A stretch of DNA of 46,662 nt from Pseudomonadota bacterium (GTDB lineage Bacteria > Pseudomonadota > Gammaproteobacteria > Burkholderiales > Burkholderiaceae_C), in NCBI GenBank assembly GCA_021847345.1, contig JAJZTW010000027.1, positions 1-46,662 of the forward strand, in the 5' to 3' direction. Positions within the stretch are counted from its first letter, which is position 1; every line of letters begins with the position of its first letter. Below the pieces are notes generated by a model. That model had not been told where the DNA came from and ran no database searches. It saw only the letters and a list, made by a program, of their open reading frames with translations. A program made the translations under genes and the position numbers. Positions 39,426 through 46,662 of the stretch are shown in pieces.

Positions 39426-40703
39426 ATGAACCTGAGCATCGCCGAACCTCTGGGCTGGGTGGCCGCGCTGGCCGCCGGCCTGCTGATCGGAATCGAGCGC
39501 GAACGCAGCCACCCGGACGAGCAGTCCAGCGCCGGGGTGCGCAGTTTCGCGCTTGCCGCGCTGGCCGGCGCGGTCGCCGAGCGCTTCGGCTCGGCGACGC
39601 TGGTGGCCGCGCTGCTCGCCGTCGGCGCGCTGGCGGTCGCCGGATACCTGCGCACGCGCGACAAGGATCCGGGCATCACGACCGAACTGGCGCTGTTGCT
39701 CAGCCTGCTGCTGGGGGCGCTGGCGATGCGCGAGCCTGCGCTGGCCTCCGCGCTGTCCGTGCTGGCGGTGGCGCTGCTGGCGGCCAAGGCGCGCCTGCAT
39801 GGTTTCGTTCGCCGCGTGCTCAGCGAGCAGGAACTGCAGCATGGCCTGCTGCTCGCAGCGTCCGTGCTGGTGGTGCTGCCGCTGCTGCCCAACCGAGCGC
39901 TGGCCGGACTCGGCGGGCTCAACCCCCATGTGCTGTGGACCCTGGCCGTGCTGCTGATGAGCATCCAGAGCATGGGGCACATCGCGTTGCGCTGGCTCGG
40001 CCCGGCGCGCGGCCTGGCCTTGACCGGCCTGTTCGGCGGTTTCGTCTCCAGCACGGCCAGCATCGCGGCGATGGCCCAGCGCGCGCGCGAGCATCCGTCC
40101 TGGTTCCTGGCCTGCCTGGCAGGGGCGCTGTGGTCCAACGTGGCGACCGTGGTGCAACTCGGAGTCATGGCCTCCGTCGTGTCTCCCGGGCTGTGGCGCT
40201 GGCTGGCCCCGGCCCTCGTGCTGACCGGGGCGGTGAGCCTGGGGGCCGGTTGGTGGAGCGCGCGCGCCGCGCGGGGCGGTGGCGGCGAGGCGCCGCCGCC
40301 GCTGGGCATGGCCGGCGAGCCCTTCAGCCCGCGTGCCGCGCTGGTGTTCGCGGCCGCGGTCGGCGTGGTGCTGTTCGTCGCCGAGATGGCCCATCGCAGC
40401 TACGGCAGCCGCGGCGTGCTGGTGGCCACCGTGCTGGCCGGCTTCGCCGACGCCCATGCCTCGGCGGTCTCGGCCATGCAGTTGCATGCCAGCGGCGCGC
40501 TCGCATCGGGTTTCGCGGCGATATGCATCGGCGGCGCATTCAGTGCGAATGCGCTCAGCAAGGTGGTGGCTGCGGCTTCCGGCGGTTCGGCGCGATTCAC
40601 GCGCCTGCAGGCCGTGACCCAGGTGGGCCTGGTCGGCGCCTTCTGGGGCGGCCTGGCCGTGGCTTCGTGGCTGCAGCCACTATTGACACGCATCGCGCCT
40701 TGA
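39426..40703 (+). CDS. MgtC/DUF4010-type integral membrane protein
   Basis: 425 residues, about 12 membrane helices. The N-terminal stretch LGWVAALAAGLLIGIERERSH followed by AGVRSFALAALAGAV is the MgtC-like domain, and the second half (ALVFAAAVGVVLFVAEMAHRSYGSRGVLVATVLAGFADAHASAVSA) is the DUF4010 part. MgtC-like proteins affect magnesium and ATP homeostasis; the full-length type is of unknown function. It stands alone, with the tRNA promoter beginning in its last codons. ATG at 39426, no strong ribosome site. Confidence 0.88.
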   Translation: MNLSIAEPLGWVAALAAGLLIGIERERSHPDEQSSAGVRSFALAALAGAVAERFGSATLVAALLAVGALAVAGYLRTRDKDPGITTELALLLSLLLGALAMREPALASALSVLAVALLAAKARLHGFVRRVLSEQELQHGLLLAASVLVVLPLLPNRALAGLGGLNPHVLWTLAVLLMSIQSMGHIALRWLGPARGLALTGLFGGFVSSTASIAAMAQRAREHPSWFLACLAGALWSNVATVVQLGVMASVVSPGLWRWLAPALVLTGAVSLGAGWWSARAARGGGGEAPPPLGMAGEPFSPRAALVFAAAVGVVLFVAEMAHRSYGSRGVLVATVLAGFADAHASAVSAMQLHASGALASGFAAICIGGAFSANALSKVVAAASGGSARFTRLQAVTQVGLVGAFWGGLAVASWLQPLLTRIAP

Positions 40704-40710
40704 CGCAAAA
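40682..40710 (+). promoter_or_regulatory. Sigma-70-type promoter of the tRNA-Asp gene
   Basis: TTGACA at 40682-40687, 17-bp spacer, CAAAAT at 40705-40710. The -35 hexamer lies inside the end of the DUF4010 gene. Start of transcription would be near 40717, about 60 bases before the mature tRNA. Confidence 0.75.
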
Positions 40711-40776
40711 TGCTTGCTTTCGCCTGACGCGCTTTGCACGTTTGGGCGCAAGGCAGTCGAACAAGCAGCAAAGCAA

Positions 40777-40853
40777 GGAGTGGTAGTTCAGTTGGTTAGA
40801 ATACCGGCCTGTCACGCCGGGGGTCGCGGGTTCGAGTCCCGTCCACTCCGCCA
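40777..40853 (+). tRNA. tRNA-Asp (anticodon GTC)
   Basis: 77 nt with a full cloverleaf: acceptor GGAGTGG/CCACTCC, D-arm with AGTTGGTTAGA, anticodon stem CCGGC/GCCGG around CTGTCAC (anticodon GTC), T-arm CGGGTTCGAGTCCCG, discriminator G and an encoded CCA. It reads Asp codons GAC/GAU. A promoter at 40682 and a GNRA-capped terminator at 40861 define a single-gene unit. Apparent protein frames antisense to it are artefacts. Confidence 0.97.
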
Positions 40854-40860
40854 AGATTCG

Positions 40861-40886
40861 CAAATGCCCGCGCAAGCGGGCATTTG
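40861..40886 (+). terminator. Terminator of tRNA-Asp
   Basis: CAAATGCCCGC (40861-40871) pairs with GCGGGCATTTG (40876-40886) around a GCAA tetraloop; it ends in CACTTT. Starts seven bases after the CCA. Confidence 0.85.
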
Positions 40887-40893
40887 CACTTTG

Positions 40894-41000
40894 GGAGTGG
40901 AGCGAGGTCCCTGCGGACCTCGCGGGCGGGGCGAGAAGGGCGCGCCATGCTTGGCGCGCAGCGGCCTGCAGCATGTAGGCGAGTCCCGTCCACTCCGCCA
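40894..41000 (+). other. tRNA-Asp-like element with substituted interior
   Basis: 107 nt beginning GGAGTGG (40894-40900) and ending CCACTCC-G-CCA (40990-41000), the same acceptor stem, discriminator and CCA as the true tRNA-Asp just upstream. The last 20 nt are identical to that tRNA. The interior is unrelated but forms three perfect or near-perfect hairpins: 9 bp (40902-40910 with 40915-40923, loop CTGC), 8 bp (40940-40947 with 40952-40959, loop TGCT) and 6 bp with one G-U (40964-40969 with 40975-40980, loop AGCAT). It has no Asp anticodon arm. Could be a decayed tRNA duplicate with an inserted segment, or a functional tRNA-like RNA. It has its own terminator at 41009. Confidence 0.6.
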
Positions 41001-41008
41001 GAATTCGC

Positions 41009-41032
41009 AAATGCCCGCGCAAGCGGGCATTT
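41009..41032 (+). terminator. Second copy of the tRNA terminator
   Basis: AAATGCCCGC (41009-41018) pairs with GCGGGCATTT (41023-41032) around GCAA, followed by TCATTTGT; the T-rich tail is better than in the first copy. Confidence 0.8.
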
Positions 41033-41119
41033 TCATTTGTGCCGCGCAGCCGGCATCTCGCTGGCCCTGCTCGCGAGGACGAAAAGGGGATAAGGGCGAC
41101 GCATTTCTCGCGCCGAACC

Positions 41120-41137
41120 TCGTTACGAGCGTAACGA
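41120..41137. promoter_or_regulatory. Small inverted repeat in the 41033-41390 gene-free region
   Basis: TCGTTAC (41120-41126) pairs with GTAACGA (41131-41137) over GAGC. The surrounding 41033-41390 region is more AT-rich than the rest and holds no protein frame that looks real; apart from this repeat I see nothing else in it. Possible operator site, low certainty. Confidence 0.35.
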
Positions 41138-41390
41138 AAGGTGAAAATCGGTTCCAAAACGATCGCATCCTTGCTTTGTTCTGTCGAATATTCGTCAGCA
41201 TGGTTGACGCAACCGATTCGACGGGTATTCCGTAAATCATCATCCGGAATCCGTGCCGCGCCTGCGGCCGTCGCCAACGCCGGTTTTCGGGGGCTCCCGA
41301 GTGCGCGCCGTCGACGGTGTGTTACTGGCGTCGACGCACCCCCTGGGATCGGGGGGTGGCCCACCGGACTGTCTCCGGGTTAACGTTTGA

Positions 41391-42463: not shown

Positions 42464-45400
42464 ATGCGCACGGCAGACTACAGGCGCTCGGCCGCGGCTC
42501 AGCCGAGTATGGCGCGCCGCGGTGTGCAAGTCCGCGTCGCCCGGCCCGCGTGCGCAGCCGCCGCCGCAGCACGCGCGCAGCAGCAGGCTGCCGTGCTCGT
42601 GCCGGCGGCGCTGGCGGTCGCGCTGGCGATGGGCTTTGCAACGCCGGCGTGGGCCGGCGCCCCGGTGATCGCGCCCCCCGCGGGCAATGCCATCGTTCCC
42701 GACGGGCGCACGCAGACCGTCGTCTCCCAGGTCGGGCGCAACGTCACCGATATCGCGACCCGTACGATCAGCGCGGGCATCGGCTACAACAGCTTCAGCC
42801 GTTTCGTCGTCGGGCAAGGCAACGACGTCAACATGCTGCTGCCGGGCGGAACGAGCCGGCTGGTCAACATCGTCACCGGAGGCCCCGTCGACATCGAAGG
42901 GGTGCTCAGGTCCTTCAAGGACGGCGCGCTCGGCGGCAACGTCGTGTTCGCCGATTCGCAGGGACTGATCGTCGGGCGCAGCGGCGTCGTCGACGTCGGC
43001 GGCTTCACCGTCGTGACACCCACATCCTCGGTGCTCGGTCGCCTGATCGACGCATCGGGCAAGGTGGACGACGCACTGTCGCGGCGCCTGCTCGCCGGCA
43101 ACGTGCCTTTGTCCAGCGACGGATCGGTGGTGATCGACGGCAAGGTGCTGGCGCAGCACGGAGTGGCGATCTTCGCGCACGACGTGCTGGTCGGCGCGAC
43201 GCCGTCGGGCGGCCAGGCCGCGGCGCAGCAGGCGGCGCTGTTCCAGTCGACCGTGAACACCAGCGGGCTGGTGCAGGGGGCGGCCATCGTCGCCCGCGGA
43301 GGAAACATCCAGATCGTCGCCGCGCACGACGCCACGGTCGACGGCACGCTGAGCGCCGACGCGTCGAAGGGCGGTGCCGGAAGCGTGAGCATCTCCGCCG
43401 GTCACGACGTGCATGTCGGCGCGCACATTTCCACCGACGGCGCACCCGCAACGGGCGCGGGCAGCATCTCCATCCGCTCCGGCGGGGACATCGACGTCGC
43501 GGCCACGGCGGTGCTCAGCGCCGCGGGCGCGGGCGCCGGCTCCGACGGAGGGCACATTTCCATCAAGGCGGGCCGGAACCTCGACGTCGCCGACGGTGCG
43601 ACCCTGCAGGCGCAGGCCGGCTCCACCGGCAACGCCGGGGAAATCGAACTGTCAGCCAAGGACAAGGCGACGCTGGGAAGGCTCAACCTCGACCTCGGCG
43701 CGGCGCACGGCCAGGCCGGGTTGCTGCTGGTCGACCCGACCGACCTGATCGTCGACAACACCAACGACAGTGCGTACACCACGGGCGGCGGATCGGTCCA
43801 GCTCATGGCGTCGAACTCGATCACCATCGACGGCACGGGGGTCATCAACACCGAGGCTCCCGGCGGGGCGTCCGGCGGCAATATCGAGCTGGACGCGCCG
43901 TCGATCAGCCTCCTCGGCGGCGCGCAGCTGCTCGCCGGGACCGGCGCGAACGCGGGAACCATCACGCTGAACGCGCAGGCGACCGCGAGCAGCGCGGCGC
44001 AGATCGACATCGGCGACAGCAGCGGGTCGGCTGCGGTGCTGCAGGGCGGGAAGATCCTGCTCGAAGCCACGTCGGACCTCGCGCAGTCGTACGACCACGC
44101 GACGATCACCATCCAGGATGCGAAGCTGATGGCCAGCGGCGCGCTGAGCGCCAGCGCCACCGCGACCGGGGGAACCCAGGTCAACGCGGTCGCCGCCGCC
44201 GGCTCGGCCGACGTGCTCGCATCGGTGAAGATCATCGGGGCCTCCAACGTCACGTCCGCGGGTGCGATGATCCTGAGCTCGAGCGCGACGAGCACGGTCG
44301 GCGCGACCGGAGCGATTCCCGCGTCGCTGTCGCTGCCTGCCGATGCGTCGGTGGCCGTCGATCAGGTCGACAGCACGAGCACGGTGGAGATCGGTGGCAG
44401 TTCCTCGGTCAGCACCACCGGCGCGAACCATGCGCTGGAGCTCGAGGCGACCAACGACGTGACGTCGAATGTCGTCGCCGACGCATCGGGCGCCTCGGCC
44501 GGCGCCAGCGTCGCCGTGAACATCGTGAAGGTGCAGACCTCGTCGACCATCGACGGCAGTGCCAATGTCGCCTCGGCAGGCAATCTGCAGCTGTCCGGCA
44601 CGACGACGGTTGTGATGAGCACCTCGGCCAAGGCTTCGCAGGGCGGTGCGTCGTCGGCCGCGGGCGGCGGCAGCTCCACGTCGCAATACCTGTCCGATCC
44701 GCGTTTCGCGCCGGACCTCGCAACCAGCGACGGCGCGGTGACCGGCGCTGCCGCGCTGGCGATCAGCGATCTCGGATCCGCCACCACGGTGGGCATGTCG
44801 TCGACCACGCAGGCCACGGCCGCGGGGCAGCTGCAGCTGCAGTCACAGGCCGCCAACGGCGCGTCGTCCATCGCCGACGGGTCGGCGGTCGGAAGCTCTT
44901 CCGGGCAGCTCGGCATCGGCGCCGCGGTGGCGCTGAACCTGGACCATGTGTCCGACGACGCGACGCTGGCGCAGGACGTGAAGGCGGCGAGCCTCGACGT
45001 GTCCGCGCAGATGACGGGCGGCATCGCCGCCAACCGTTTTCTCACGAGCGCCACGGCCGGGGCCGGCGCCTCCGACGTCGGCGTTGCCGGCGCACTCGCG
45101 ACCAACCTGGTGGACAGCGAGTCGGTGGCGCAGGTGGCGTCGGGGTCGGTGCAGATCGCGGGCGGCGGAGCGGTGGACGTGGGCTCGGACGACCTGACGT
45201 CGAGCAGCGTGTCGGCGCTGCCGGCGGGGGCGGGTGCGAGCGGGGGCTCGGTGGGGGTGGGCGCTTCGGTGGCGCTGAACATCGTGGCCACGCGCTCGCA
45301 GGCGCAGCTGGCCGACGGCACGTCGCTGACGGGGGCCGGGGCGGTGACGCTGGAGGCCGACGGCACGCACGTGGTGAGCACGCAAGCCGACCAGGGAGCG

Positions 45401-46662
45401 GCGGGCGGGGTGGCGGTGACGCCGGTGGTGGCGCTGTCGCTGGTCAACGACCAGACGCAGGCGACGATCGGGGCGTTGGCGGGAGGGCTGCAGGCCGGCG
45501 GCGCGGTGCAGGTGAGCGCGTCGCAGACGGCCACCGAGGCCACCGAGGCCAGCGGCAGCGCGGCCGGCGGCAAGGCGGCGGTGGGGGCCGCGCTGGCGGT
45601 GTCGGTGATCGACGACTCGGTGCTGGCGACGACGTCGACGAGCGTGGACGCGGGCGGCGCGGTGGACTTCGCGGCCAGCGGGGTGTCGCTGAGCGTGGCC
45701 AGCGCGACGGCCAGCGCCAGCGGGGGCAATCAGGCCACGAGCAGCGGCTCGGCGCCGTCGGGAGAGGACTCGAGCGTCGACGCGAAGATCCAGAAGCAGT
45801 CGAACTCGGCCGAGACGAAGGCGAGTTCGGCCGGCGTGGGCAGCGCATCGCAGCAGTCGGCCGACAGCACGTCGTCGGGCGGCGAGAACGGGCAGGGCTC
45901 GACCAGCGAAGGCTCGGTGGCGGTGGCGGCGGCGATCGCGGTGGACGTGGCGAACTCGACGGTGCAGGCGTACGTGCCGGCGGCGGTGGGGGTGACGGCG
46001 AGCGGCGGGCTGGGCGTGACCGCGGTGTCGAACATGGATGCGCGCACGATCGCCGACGGCAGCCAGGTGGCGGGCGGGGGCACGTCGGTGGGGATCGGTG
46101 CGGCGGTGGCGATCACGCTGGCGCACCAGGTCAACGATGCGACGCTGGGTTCGTCGACGGCGCTGTCGTCGGCGCCGACGACGGGCACGCTGACGGCAGG
46201 GGATTACCAGGCGGGTTCGCTGACGCTGACGGCGCTGCAGACGGACCAGGGGGTGGCGTCGCCGGCGGTGCCGGGGTCGACGTCGCCGGGGCCTGCGTCG
46301 GTGGACGCGACGCTGGGCACGCAAAGCGGGCGCGAGGACCTGTACTCGGCGCAGGCCACGTCCGGCGCTGGCGCGTCGAAGGTGGGCGTGGCGGGGTCGT
46401 TGGCGCTGGACCTGGTGGACAGCGAGTCGGTGGCGCAGGTGGCGTCGGGGTCGGTGCAGATCACGGGCGGCGGAGCGGTGGACGTGGGCTCGGACGACCT
46501 GACGTCGAGCAGCGTGTCGGCGCTGCCGGCGGGGACGGGTGCGAGCGGGGGCTCGGTGGGGGTGGGCGCTTCGGTGGCGCTGAACATCGTGGCCACGCGC
46601 TCGCAGGCGCAGCTGGCCGACGGCACGTCGCTGACGGGGGCCGGGGCGGTGACGCTGGAGGC
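42464..46662 (+). CDS. Giant LktA/filamentous-haemagglutinin-type adhesin (3' partial)
   Basis: At least 1399 residues, open at the right edge. GGGGGGAGA before the ATG. A long signal region (hydrophobic AVLVPAALAVALAMGFATPAWA, cleavage near residue 64) precedes a two-partner-secretion domain: ISAGIGYNSFSRFVVGQGNDVNMLLPGGTSRLVNIV, with DIEGVLRSFKDGALGGNVVFADSQGLIVGRSGVVDVG. Then comes a beta-helix-like repeat stalk with GGNIQIVAAHDATVDG and GSISIRSGGDIDVAATAV type turns, followed by at least ten blocks resembling xGxGAAVAL...A.L. There are almost no Cys or aromatics. Such proteins are exported by a TpsB outer-membrane pore and act in adhesion or toxin-like functions. The residue range about 880-965 is nearly repeated from about 1316 on. 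No tpsB gene in the window. Confidence 0.87.
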   Translation, partial: MRTADYRRSAAAQPSMARRGVQVRVARPACAAAAAARAQQQAAVLVPAALAVALAMGFATPAWAGAPVIAPPAGNAIVPDGRTQTVVSQVGRNVTDIATRTISAGIGYNSFSRFVVGQGNDVNMLLPGGTSRLVNIVTGGPVDIEGVLRSFKDGALGGNVVFADSQGLIVGRSGVVDVGGFTVVTPTSSVLGRLIDASGKVDDALSRRLLAGNVPLSSDGSVVIDGKVLAQHGVAIFAHDVLVGATPSGGQAAAQQAALFQSTVNTSGLVQGAAIVARGGNIQIVAAHDATVDGTLSADASKGGAGSVSISAGHDVHVGAHISTDGAPATGAGSISIRSGGDIDVAATAVLSAAGAGAGSDGGHISIKAGRNLDVADGATLQAQAGSTGNAGEIELSAKDKATLGRLNLDLGAAHGQAGLLLVDPTDLIVDNTNDSAYTTGGGSVQLMASNSITIDGTGVINTEAPGGASGGNIELDAPSISLLGGAQLLAGTGANAGTITLNAQATASSAAQIDIGDSSGSAAVLQGGKILLEATSDLAQSYDHATITIQDAKLMASGALSASATATGGTQVNAVAAAGSADVLASVKIIGASNVTSAGAMILSSSATSTVGATGAIPASLSLPADASVAVDQVDSTSTVEIGGSSSVSTTGANHALELEATNDVTSNVVADASGASAGASVAVNIVKVQTSSTIDGSANVASAGNLQLSGTTTVVMSTSAKASQGGASSAAGGGSSTSQYLSDPRFAPDLATSDGAVTGAAALAISDLGSATTVGMSSTTQATAAGQLQLQSQAANGASSIADGSAVGSSSGQLGIGAAVALNLDHVSDDATLAQDVKAASLDVSAQMTGGIAANRFLTSATAGAGASDVGVAGALATNLVDSESVAQVASGSVQIAGGGAVDVGSDDLTSSSVSALPAGAGASGGSVGVGASVALNIVATRSQAQLADGTSLTGAGAVTLEADGTHVVSTQADQGAAGGVAVTPVVALSLVNDQTQATIGALAGGLQAGGAVQVSASQTATEATEASGSAAGGKAAVGAALAVSVIDDSVLATTSTSVDAGGAVDFAASGVSLSVASATASASGGNQATSSGSAPSGEDSSVDAKIQKQSNSAETKASSAGVGSASQQSADSTSSGGENGQGSTSEGSVAVAAAIAVDVANSTVQAYVPAAVGVTASGGLGVTAVSNMDARTIADGSQVAGGGTSVGIGAAVAITLAHQVNDATLGSSTALSSAPTTGTLTAGDYQAGSLTLTALQTDQGVASPAVPGSTSPGPASVDATLGTQSGREDLYSAQATSGAGASKVGVAGSLALDLVDSESVAQVASGSVQITGGGAVDVGSDDLTSSSVSALPAGTGASGGSVGVGASVALNIVATRSQAQLADGTSLTGAGAVTLE
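45105..45357 (+). repeat. 253-bp direct repeat inside the adhesin gene, copy 1
   Basis: Identical to 46410-46662 except for two single-base substitutions (G/A in the ATCGCG/ATCACG context and C/A in GGGGCGGG/GGGACGGG). The period is 1305 bp, exactly 435 codons, so frame is kept. Both copies encode LVDSESVAQVASGSVQI to LADGTSLTGAGAVTLE. Confidence 0.95.
46410..46662 (+). repeat. 253-bp direct repeat inside the adhesin gene, copy 2 (runs to window end)
   Basis: Second copy, matched to 45105-45357 at 251 of 253 positions. It continues to the last base shown, so the true repeat length is larger and unknown. The protein similarity extends upstream (AGASKVGVAGSLALDL versus AGASDVGVAGALATNL) but at lower DNA identity. 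Confidence 0.95.

Follow-up and report, generated by a model that had tools for sequence, protein, structure and literature searches.

The window, which is the whole analysed stretch of 46,662 nucleotides, contains one tRNA-Asp (GTC) gene. Downstream of this gene, beyond a hairpin spacer, lies a structured element of 107 nt with the ends of a tRNA (Table 1). The 5' end of the element, GGAGTGG, pairs with CCACTCC. Its 3' end is composed of the 3' strand of the Asp T-stem, the 3' strand of the acceptor stem, G73 (40997), and CCA (40998-41000). The predicted fold consists of the acceptor stem, hairpin H1, the T-stem-like helix P, and hairpins H2 and H3 within a split T-loop. Its minimum free energy is -68.4 kcal/mol, compared with -51.6 (sd 3.1) in 200 shuffled sequences, none of which was as low (z -5.4). 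This confirms the sequence-only reading in that both Asp acceptor strands, the discriminator G, and CCA are kept around three hairpins. The same reading considered the D arm, the anticodon arm, and most of the T arm to be replaced. Neither a D arm nor an anticodon arm is present, but the T-stem is kept, as helix P shows the same pairing as the T-stem of a tRNA.

Table 1. Features of the tRNA-Asp locus in the window
Feature	Position	Strand	Evidence
Sigma-70-like promoter TTGACA-17-CAAAAT, before tRNA-Asp	40683..40711	+	Consensus match alone
tRNA-Asp (GTC)	40777..40853	+	ARAGORN, tRNA model
Direct repeat (59 nt), copy 1: tRNA tail (CGAGTCCC...CCA) and hairpin	40833..40891	+	Repeat search
Spacer hairpin 3' of tRNA, with weak T-tail	40860..40887	+	Inverted repeat; unscored as terminator
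tRNA-tailed structured element, whole	40894..41000	+	Fold; 117.4 bits with R1 (R1 includes the window copy)
Acceptor stem, 5' strand (partner 40990-40996)	40894..40900	+	Fold, covariance model
Hairpin H1, 9 bp, loop CTGC	40902..40923	+	Fold, covariation
T-stem-like helix P, 5' strand (partner 40983-40989)	40926..40932	+	Fold, covariation
Hairpin H2, 8 bp	40940..40959	+	Fold, covariation
Hairpin H3, 7 bp, conserved G.U wobble	40964..40980	+	Fold, covariation, G.U counts
Direct repeat, copy 2: tRNA tail (to 41000) and terminator	40980..41038	+	Repeat search
Terminator-like hairpin 3' of element	41009..41032	+	Consensus scan

The two copies of the direct repeat are 93% identical. The second was thought to provide the element with its own copy of a terminator. 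The hairpin 3' of the element is the only one that scores as a terminator in the consensus scan of the window (one found versus 0.9 expected in shuffles), but the hairpin upstream of the element has a poor T-tail and does not score. With the promoter-like site and the sole scoring terminator 3' of the element, read-through into the element is plausible; RNA polymerase could pass the weak hairpin. Elsewhere in the window, at 44362-46626, two separate minus-strand ORFs contain near-identical peptide stretches (PSASCACERVATMFSATEAPTPTEPPLAP and neighbours), which suggests a long internal DNA repeat there.

Among 60 relatives searched, similar sequences were found 3' of tRNA-Asp in G024, G028, and G042. 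The tRNA acceptor stem in G028, GGAGCGG/CCGCTCC, differs from that in the window, and the element is altered in step. An HMM scan of L024-L035 found one element, which is the G028 copy. The covariance model R1, built from these three sequences and the window copy, finds matches within the order in 16 of 399 genomes and, in a family sample, in 8 of 250; the window's own genome is included in both. A second model, R2, matches 149 of 245 genomes of Oxalobacteraceae, the family of Massilia, and 56 of 200 genomes of the Burkholderia/Cupriavidus family; both families were selected because matches were already known there. R2 also matches 2 of 28 genomes of the window's genus and, in a class sample, 1 of 369 genomes, which is the window's own genome only; covariance searches over more than 40 genomes were run with stricter filters, by which weak matches are lost. 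In the own genome (93% complete), there is one model match at E<=1, and a sequence search of this genome found, beyond the element itself, the recurrence of the tRNA tail alone. REP-like dispersed repeats have many scattered copies per genome, and the single model match does not show this character.

A pattern scan, which is biased to the Asp, Ser, and Glu types, gave at least 120 stretches among the matches listed. These include Massilia, Herbaspirillum, Herminiimonas, Collimonas, Duganella, Burkholderia, Cupriavidus, and a Comamonadaceae MAG. Two pattern matches, one in an Actinobacteria MAG (L110) and the other in a viral contig (L201, the sole match in IMG/VR), have no covariance-model match. 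A match in G017:C42 has no tRNA match and appears coding-like by eye.

HMMs from the model alignments yielded 296 matches in 227 distinct contexts on 251 sequences. In 194 contexts, the element is located at most 250 nt downstream of a tRNA on the same strand. The tRNAs are Asp(GTC) in 115 contexts, Ser(CGA) in 35, Ser(GCT) in 16, Leu(CAG) in 13, Glu(TTC) in 10, and Ser(GGA) in 5. Six contexts are at 251-1200 nt from a tRNA, and 17 have less than 500 nt of upstream sequence. The other 10 have more than 500 nt of upstream sequence, yet no tRNA is predicted. Inspection of these by eye revealed a masked or broken tRNA in two contexts of L119 and in L178, and a preceding tRNA-tail fragment in L150, one context of L113, and, less clearly, L098. 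No tRNA was seen upstream by eye in the second context of L113, L047, L072, and L077.

In L150 (1430-1630) and L113 (776-976), the tRNA-tail fragment abuts the element, and unrelated DNA is found ahead of the fragment. The layout looks as if an island was inserted in the tRNA, parting the tRNA from the element. Low-scoring half-elements (H1, CGAAGG, and H2) without predicted tRNA are seen in genus g179 (L071, L075, and L077 from G645, and L072 from G445). They are possibly a related dispersed repeat.

As the fold recurs in several families and next to tRNAs of four amino-acid types, a scar with an inserted repeat, one of the origins suggested earlier, is insufficient as the whole explanation. 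Based on these distributions, the element is to be regarded as one copy of a widespread bacterial family, and not as a lone scar.

The tails of elements were compared with tRNAs in the 200 of 227 contexts that have a tRNA within 900 nt upstream. The tail is identical to the last 20 nt of the upstream tRNA in 133 contexts and has at most one mismatch in 145, while 50 show more than three mismatches. Against tRNAs of the other three amino acids, element tails always have at least four mismatches. The 3' flank of the tRNA and the 3' flank of the element are also similar, with a median similarity of 0.91 versus 0.62 for random pairs (n=149). At the sequence level, these comparisons establish that the tail copies the 3' end of the neighbouring tRNA and that the two flanks, 3' of the tRNA and 3' of the element, are alike within a locus. 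The likeness of the flanks suggests that the repeats evolve together. The core follows the tRNA as well. When neighbours at 97% identity or more were excluded, the nearest-neighbour core belonged to the same tRNA amino acid in 142 of 149 cases, with an expected fraction of 0.55.

Two-sided changes were observed in 15 of 38 pairs in the R1 alignment, and none of 500 shuffles was as high. A larger, structure-fitted alignment, A8, contains 104 copies (100 distinct) fetched by sequence search with the window copy and by covariance models, drawn from 79 sources at E<=1e-6. Duplicates, pattern-fetched loci, and weak, cut, or odd sequences (L049, L051, L059, and L070-L079) were left out. In A8, 97.2% of cells are paired, which was reached by none of 500 shuffles; with slid partners the value was 36-50%, with a maximum of 49.5%. 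Two-sided changes are seen in 31 of 38 pairs. RNAalifold on an unfitted MAFFT alignment of 23 copies predicted H1, P, and H2, with covariation in 22 of 26 pairs; from this alignment, the acceptor stem was not predicted, and H3 was predicted only at its base. The sequence-only reading had proposed a coherent, foldable interior, and compensatory changes across many genomes, found with both covariance models and RNAalifold, bear this out. The covariation demonstrates constraint on a predicted folded single strand with H1, H2, H3, and helix P, which closes on the tail.

The acceptor helix behaves differently. Of 150 copies with a clear tRNA tail, 81 have all pairs of this helix and 110 have 6 bp or more, although a fraction of 0.15-0.36 of shuffles also reaches 6 bp, depending on tRNA type. 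With a complete helix in just 81 copies, the acceptor helix is common but dispensable and does not define the family. Among the 100 distinct A8 copies, the conserved loops are CTGC in H1 (85/100) and TGCA (74/100). The linker GA is present in 98 copies, and the facing dinucleotide is TC or GA in 93. GA facing TC or GA is a Watson-Crick or tandem G.A motif. Kissing between the H1 and H3 loops was considered and dropped by eye.

The kind of molecule can be approached through wobble pairs. A G.U wobble occupies one pair of H3 in 97 of 99 A8 sequences, while the neighbouring pairs vary; in R1 itself, three of four sequences have it. An earlier count of 88 of 88 from alignment A7 was discarded in favour of A8, because the A7 pattern fixes that pair. 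The counts of G.U versus A.C in A8 are 133 versus 0 in H3, 76 versus 7 in P, 9 versus 1 in H1, 1 versus 2 in H2, and 25 versus 21 in the acceptor stem. In the pattern-fetched set, they are 4 versus 4 in H2 and 5 versus 4 in H1. The excess in helix P is partly inherited from the T-stem of the tRNA. The absence of G.U excess over A.C in H2, and the small excess in H1, are unusual for RNA helices. The counts for H3 and P favour a folded single strand, for which RNA is the simplest candidate, while H2 taken alone would fit folded DNA equally.

Tandem arrays are also present: five elements in L211 (G1052), four of them with equal score, at a period of 177 nt, and seven elements in G1397:C1:2149767-2150967. 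Such arrays could be formed if the core is a DNA-level repeat. It would then be a small, non-autonomous element of mobile or recombination type, with the 3' ends of tRNAs serving as its attachment repeats and with hairpins that are recognized as folded DNA. The direct repeats on both sides of the core in the window, the similar flanks, the patchy presence among genomes, the H2 pairing with its lack of G.U excess, and the few tRNA-less half-elements in g179 would fit this explanation too. It is considered unlikely, although with appreciable weight, since the cores sort by tRNA type, the G.U in H3 is conserved, and the own genome has one copy. In addition, the window copy as a query gave no match at E<=1e-5 among 72,556 plasmid and 50,697 phage records, and the IMG/VR pattern match has no counterpart in the covariance models.

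In a purpose-made scan, a terminator-like hairpin follows the element in 134 of 150 copies, and where the tRNA is a direct neighbour, one also separates it from the element in 117 of 133 cases. In the other 16, including the window, no terminator-like hairpin was found ahead of the element. The element and the second hairpin could therefore be a back-up 3' structure that merely stops or trims read-through transcripts of the tRNA, as the hairpin after most copies and the sole scoring terminator of the window would allow. This is improbable: a terminator already precedes the element in most loci, and neither the conserved loops and linker nor the exact tRNA tail would be explained. In two loci, L082 (Massilia horti) and L043 (G091), tRNA-Asp genes lie on both sides of the element. 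The distance from the upstream gene is 9 and 7 nt, and that to the downstream gene 18 and 16 nt, respectively, and no terminator was found there. Due to this position, the element should be co-transcribed with the tRNAs at these loci.

The upstream gene and the tRNA are common to the window and seven relatives (G024, G015, G009, G012, G018, G026, and G002). The upstream flank is 94% identical to the window in G015 and 78-82% in the others. G024 has an intact element identical to the window copy in 99 of 107 columns, against 78% identity for the upstream flank that both share. In H1, the differences include two compensated pairs, at columns 11-28 and 15-24. G015 and G009 have remnants of the element at the equivalent locus. 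In G012, G018, G026, and G002, no recognizable element was found in 190 nt 3' of the tRNA. The two remnants and the four relatives with no recognizable element indicate that copies are easily and often lost. Frequent loss is as expected from recombination between repeated tRNA tails. The intact copies are constrained.

These remnants and the loci with no recognizable element, and the tRNA-derived character of both ends, are also what a second tRNA gene would show if it were functionless, decayed, and interrupted by an insertion. Covariation, recurrence across families and tRNA types, and the conservation in G024 beyond that of its flank disfavour this origin, which is very improbable for the element, though it may apply to single remnant copies. 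The sequence-only reading had counted decay in relatives against its own proposal; such decay exists locally and is outweighed by the intact covarying copies elsewhere.

Taken together, the element probably belongs to a Burkholderiales family of structured RNAs that lie 3' of particular tRNAs, are co-transcribed with them, and are released by processing, analogous to rtT. The rtT-like reading is most likely the best one for the element, with its function unproven. By extension from the two loci between tRNA genes, the element is presumably transcribed together with its tRNA. The enzymes that mature tRNA ends would then cut it out and leave a CCA-ended RNA. This RNA might modulate the response to amino-acid starvation, as published for rtT, or might alternatively compete for tRNA-handling proteins. 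In a specific form of the latter, the family would be a decoy class, in which every copy retains precisely the CCA tail of one tRNA. It would thereby engage proteins responsible for maturing, charging, or sensing that tRNA and tune the supply or starvation signal of the tRNA; this form is quite unlikely. At the DNA level, the repeated tails would permit unequal crossing-over, by which arrays form and copies are deleted, and the patchy distribution would be explained. Recombination at tRNA tails may thus explain the gain, loss, and arrays of elements. As a second widespread tRNA-tailed family, with several tRNA types and strong covariation, the elements make the role of such RNAs testable in many strains, and natural pairs with and without the element at one locus provide test material.

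Searches of the literature, with subscription papers mostly outside their reach, and of Rfam found no earlier description of the element. The tRNA-tailed family is apparently not yet described, as far as these literature searches and Rfam go, and the element points to a family absent from the Rfam copy used. Low-threshold Rfam scans of the window and 12 relatives returned tRNA and weaker matches below gathering scores, among them sX4 over tRNA-Ser. Burkholderiales-1, a candidate motif of ambiguous class in Table 1 of PMC2864571, shares the bacterial order with the element and may be an earlier sighting of the family.

The element shares the acceptor stem, discriminator, CCA, and T-stem pairing with tRNA (RF00005), so that tRNA mimic, a term of the sequence-only reading, is apt for both of its ends. 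Unlike tRNA, it has no D arm or anticodon arm, and neither ARAGORN nor the tRNA model calls it. Islands in tRNA genes leave attL/attR scars, in which the 3' end of the tRNA is directly repeated. The element has this direct repeat in common with the scars, but it contains a conserved folded core of ~87 nt, and the window copy has no phage or plasmid match at E<=1e-5.

The closest layout is that of rtT (RF00391). According to PMC4986893, whose reference list dates the rtT report to 1991, a tRNA transcript is the source from which RtT RNA is set free, RtT RNAs modulate the stringent response, those of A. pleuropneumoniae give Northern blot signals, and RtT matches occur near Asn and Lys tRNA genes, with many tRNA operons mentioned. 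In E. coli K-12 (NC_000913.3 1285800-1287400), three rtT units come after tyrV, all of them with the 3' end of tRNA-Tyr as their tail, and the 5' strand GGGGAAGGAT-GAGAAG pairs with this tail. To our knowledge, the role of rtT remains poorly understood. RF00391 was not among the Rfam matches at E<=10 for 40700-41200 of the window. It matched none of 60 genomes of the order (own genome, G042, and G091 included) at E<=0.01, with a positive E. coli control, and R1 showed no significant match to rtT (E 0.66). By inspection, rtT has no H1-like hairpin between the acceptor and T-stem strands, whereas the element has H1. rtT overlaps the tpr reading frame, as seen in E. coli K-12. It is linked there to tRNA-Tyr, which is not strictly defining for rtT, while the elements in the 194 contexts are linked to Asp, Ser, Leu, and Glu only. 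The layout is common to both, but neither model finds the other family; thus, the element is not assigned to rtT. Both lie 3' of a tRNA gene and end in the 3' end of that tRNA with CCA, and in both the tail is paired with a strand further upstream, so that an interior of multiple hairpins is enclosed. A further common trait is that the closing helix is bordered by GAGAAG on one side and by GAG on the other, with GAGAA in 26 of 100 A8 copies. This motif may point to shared descent of the two families.
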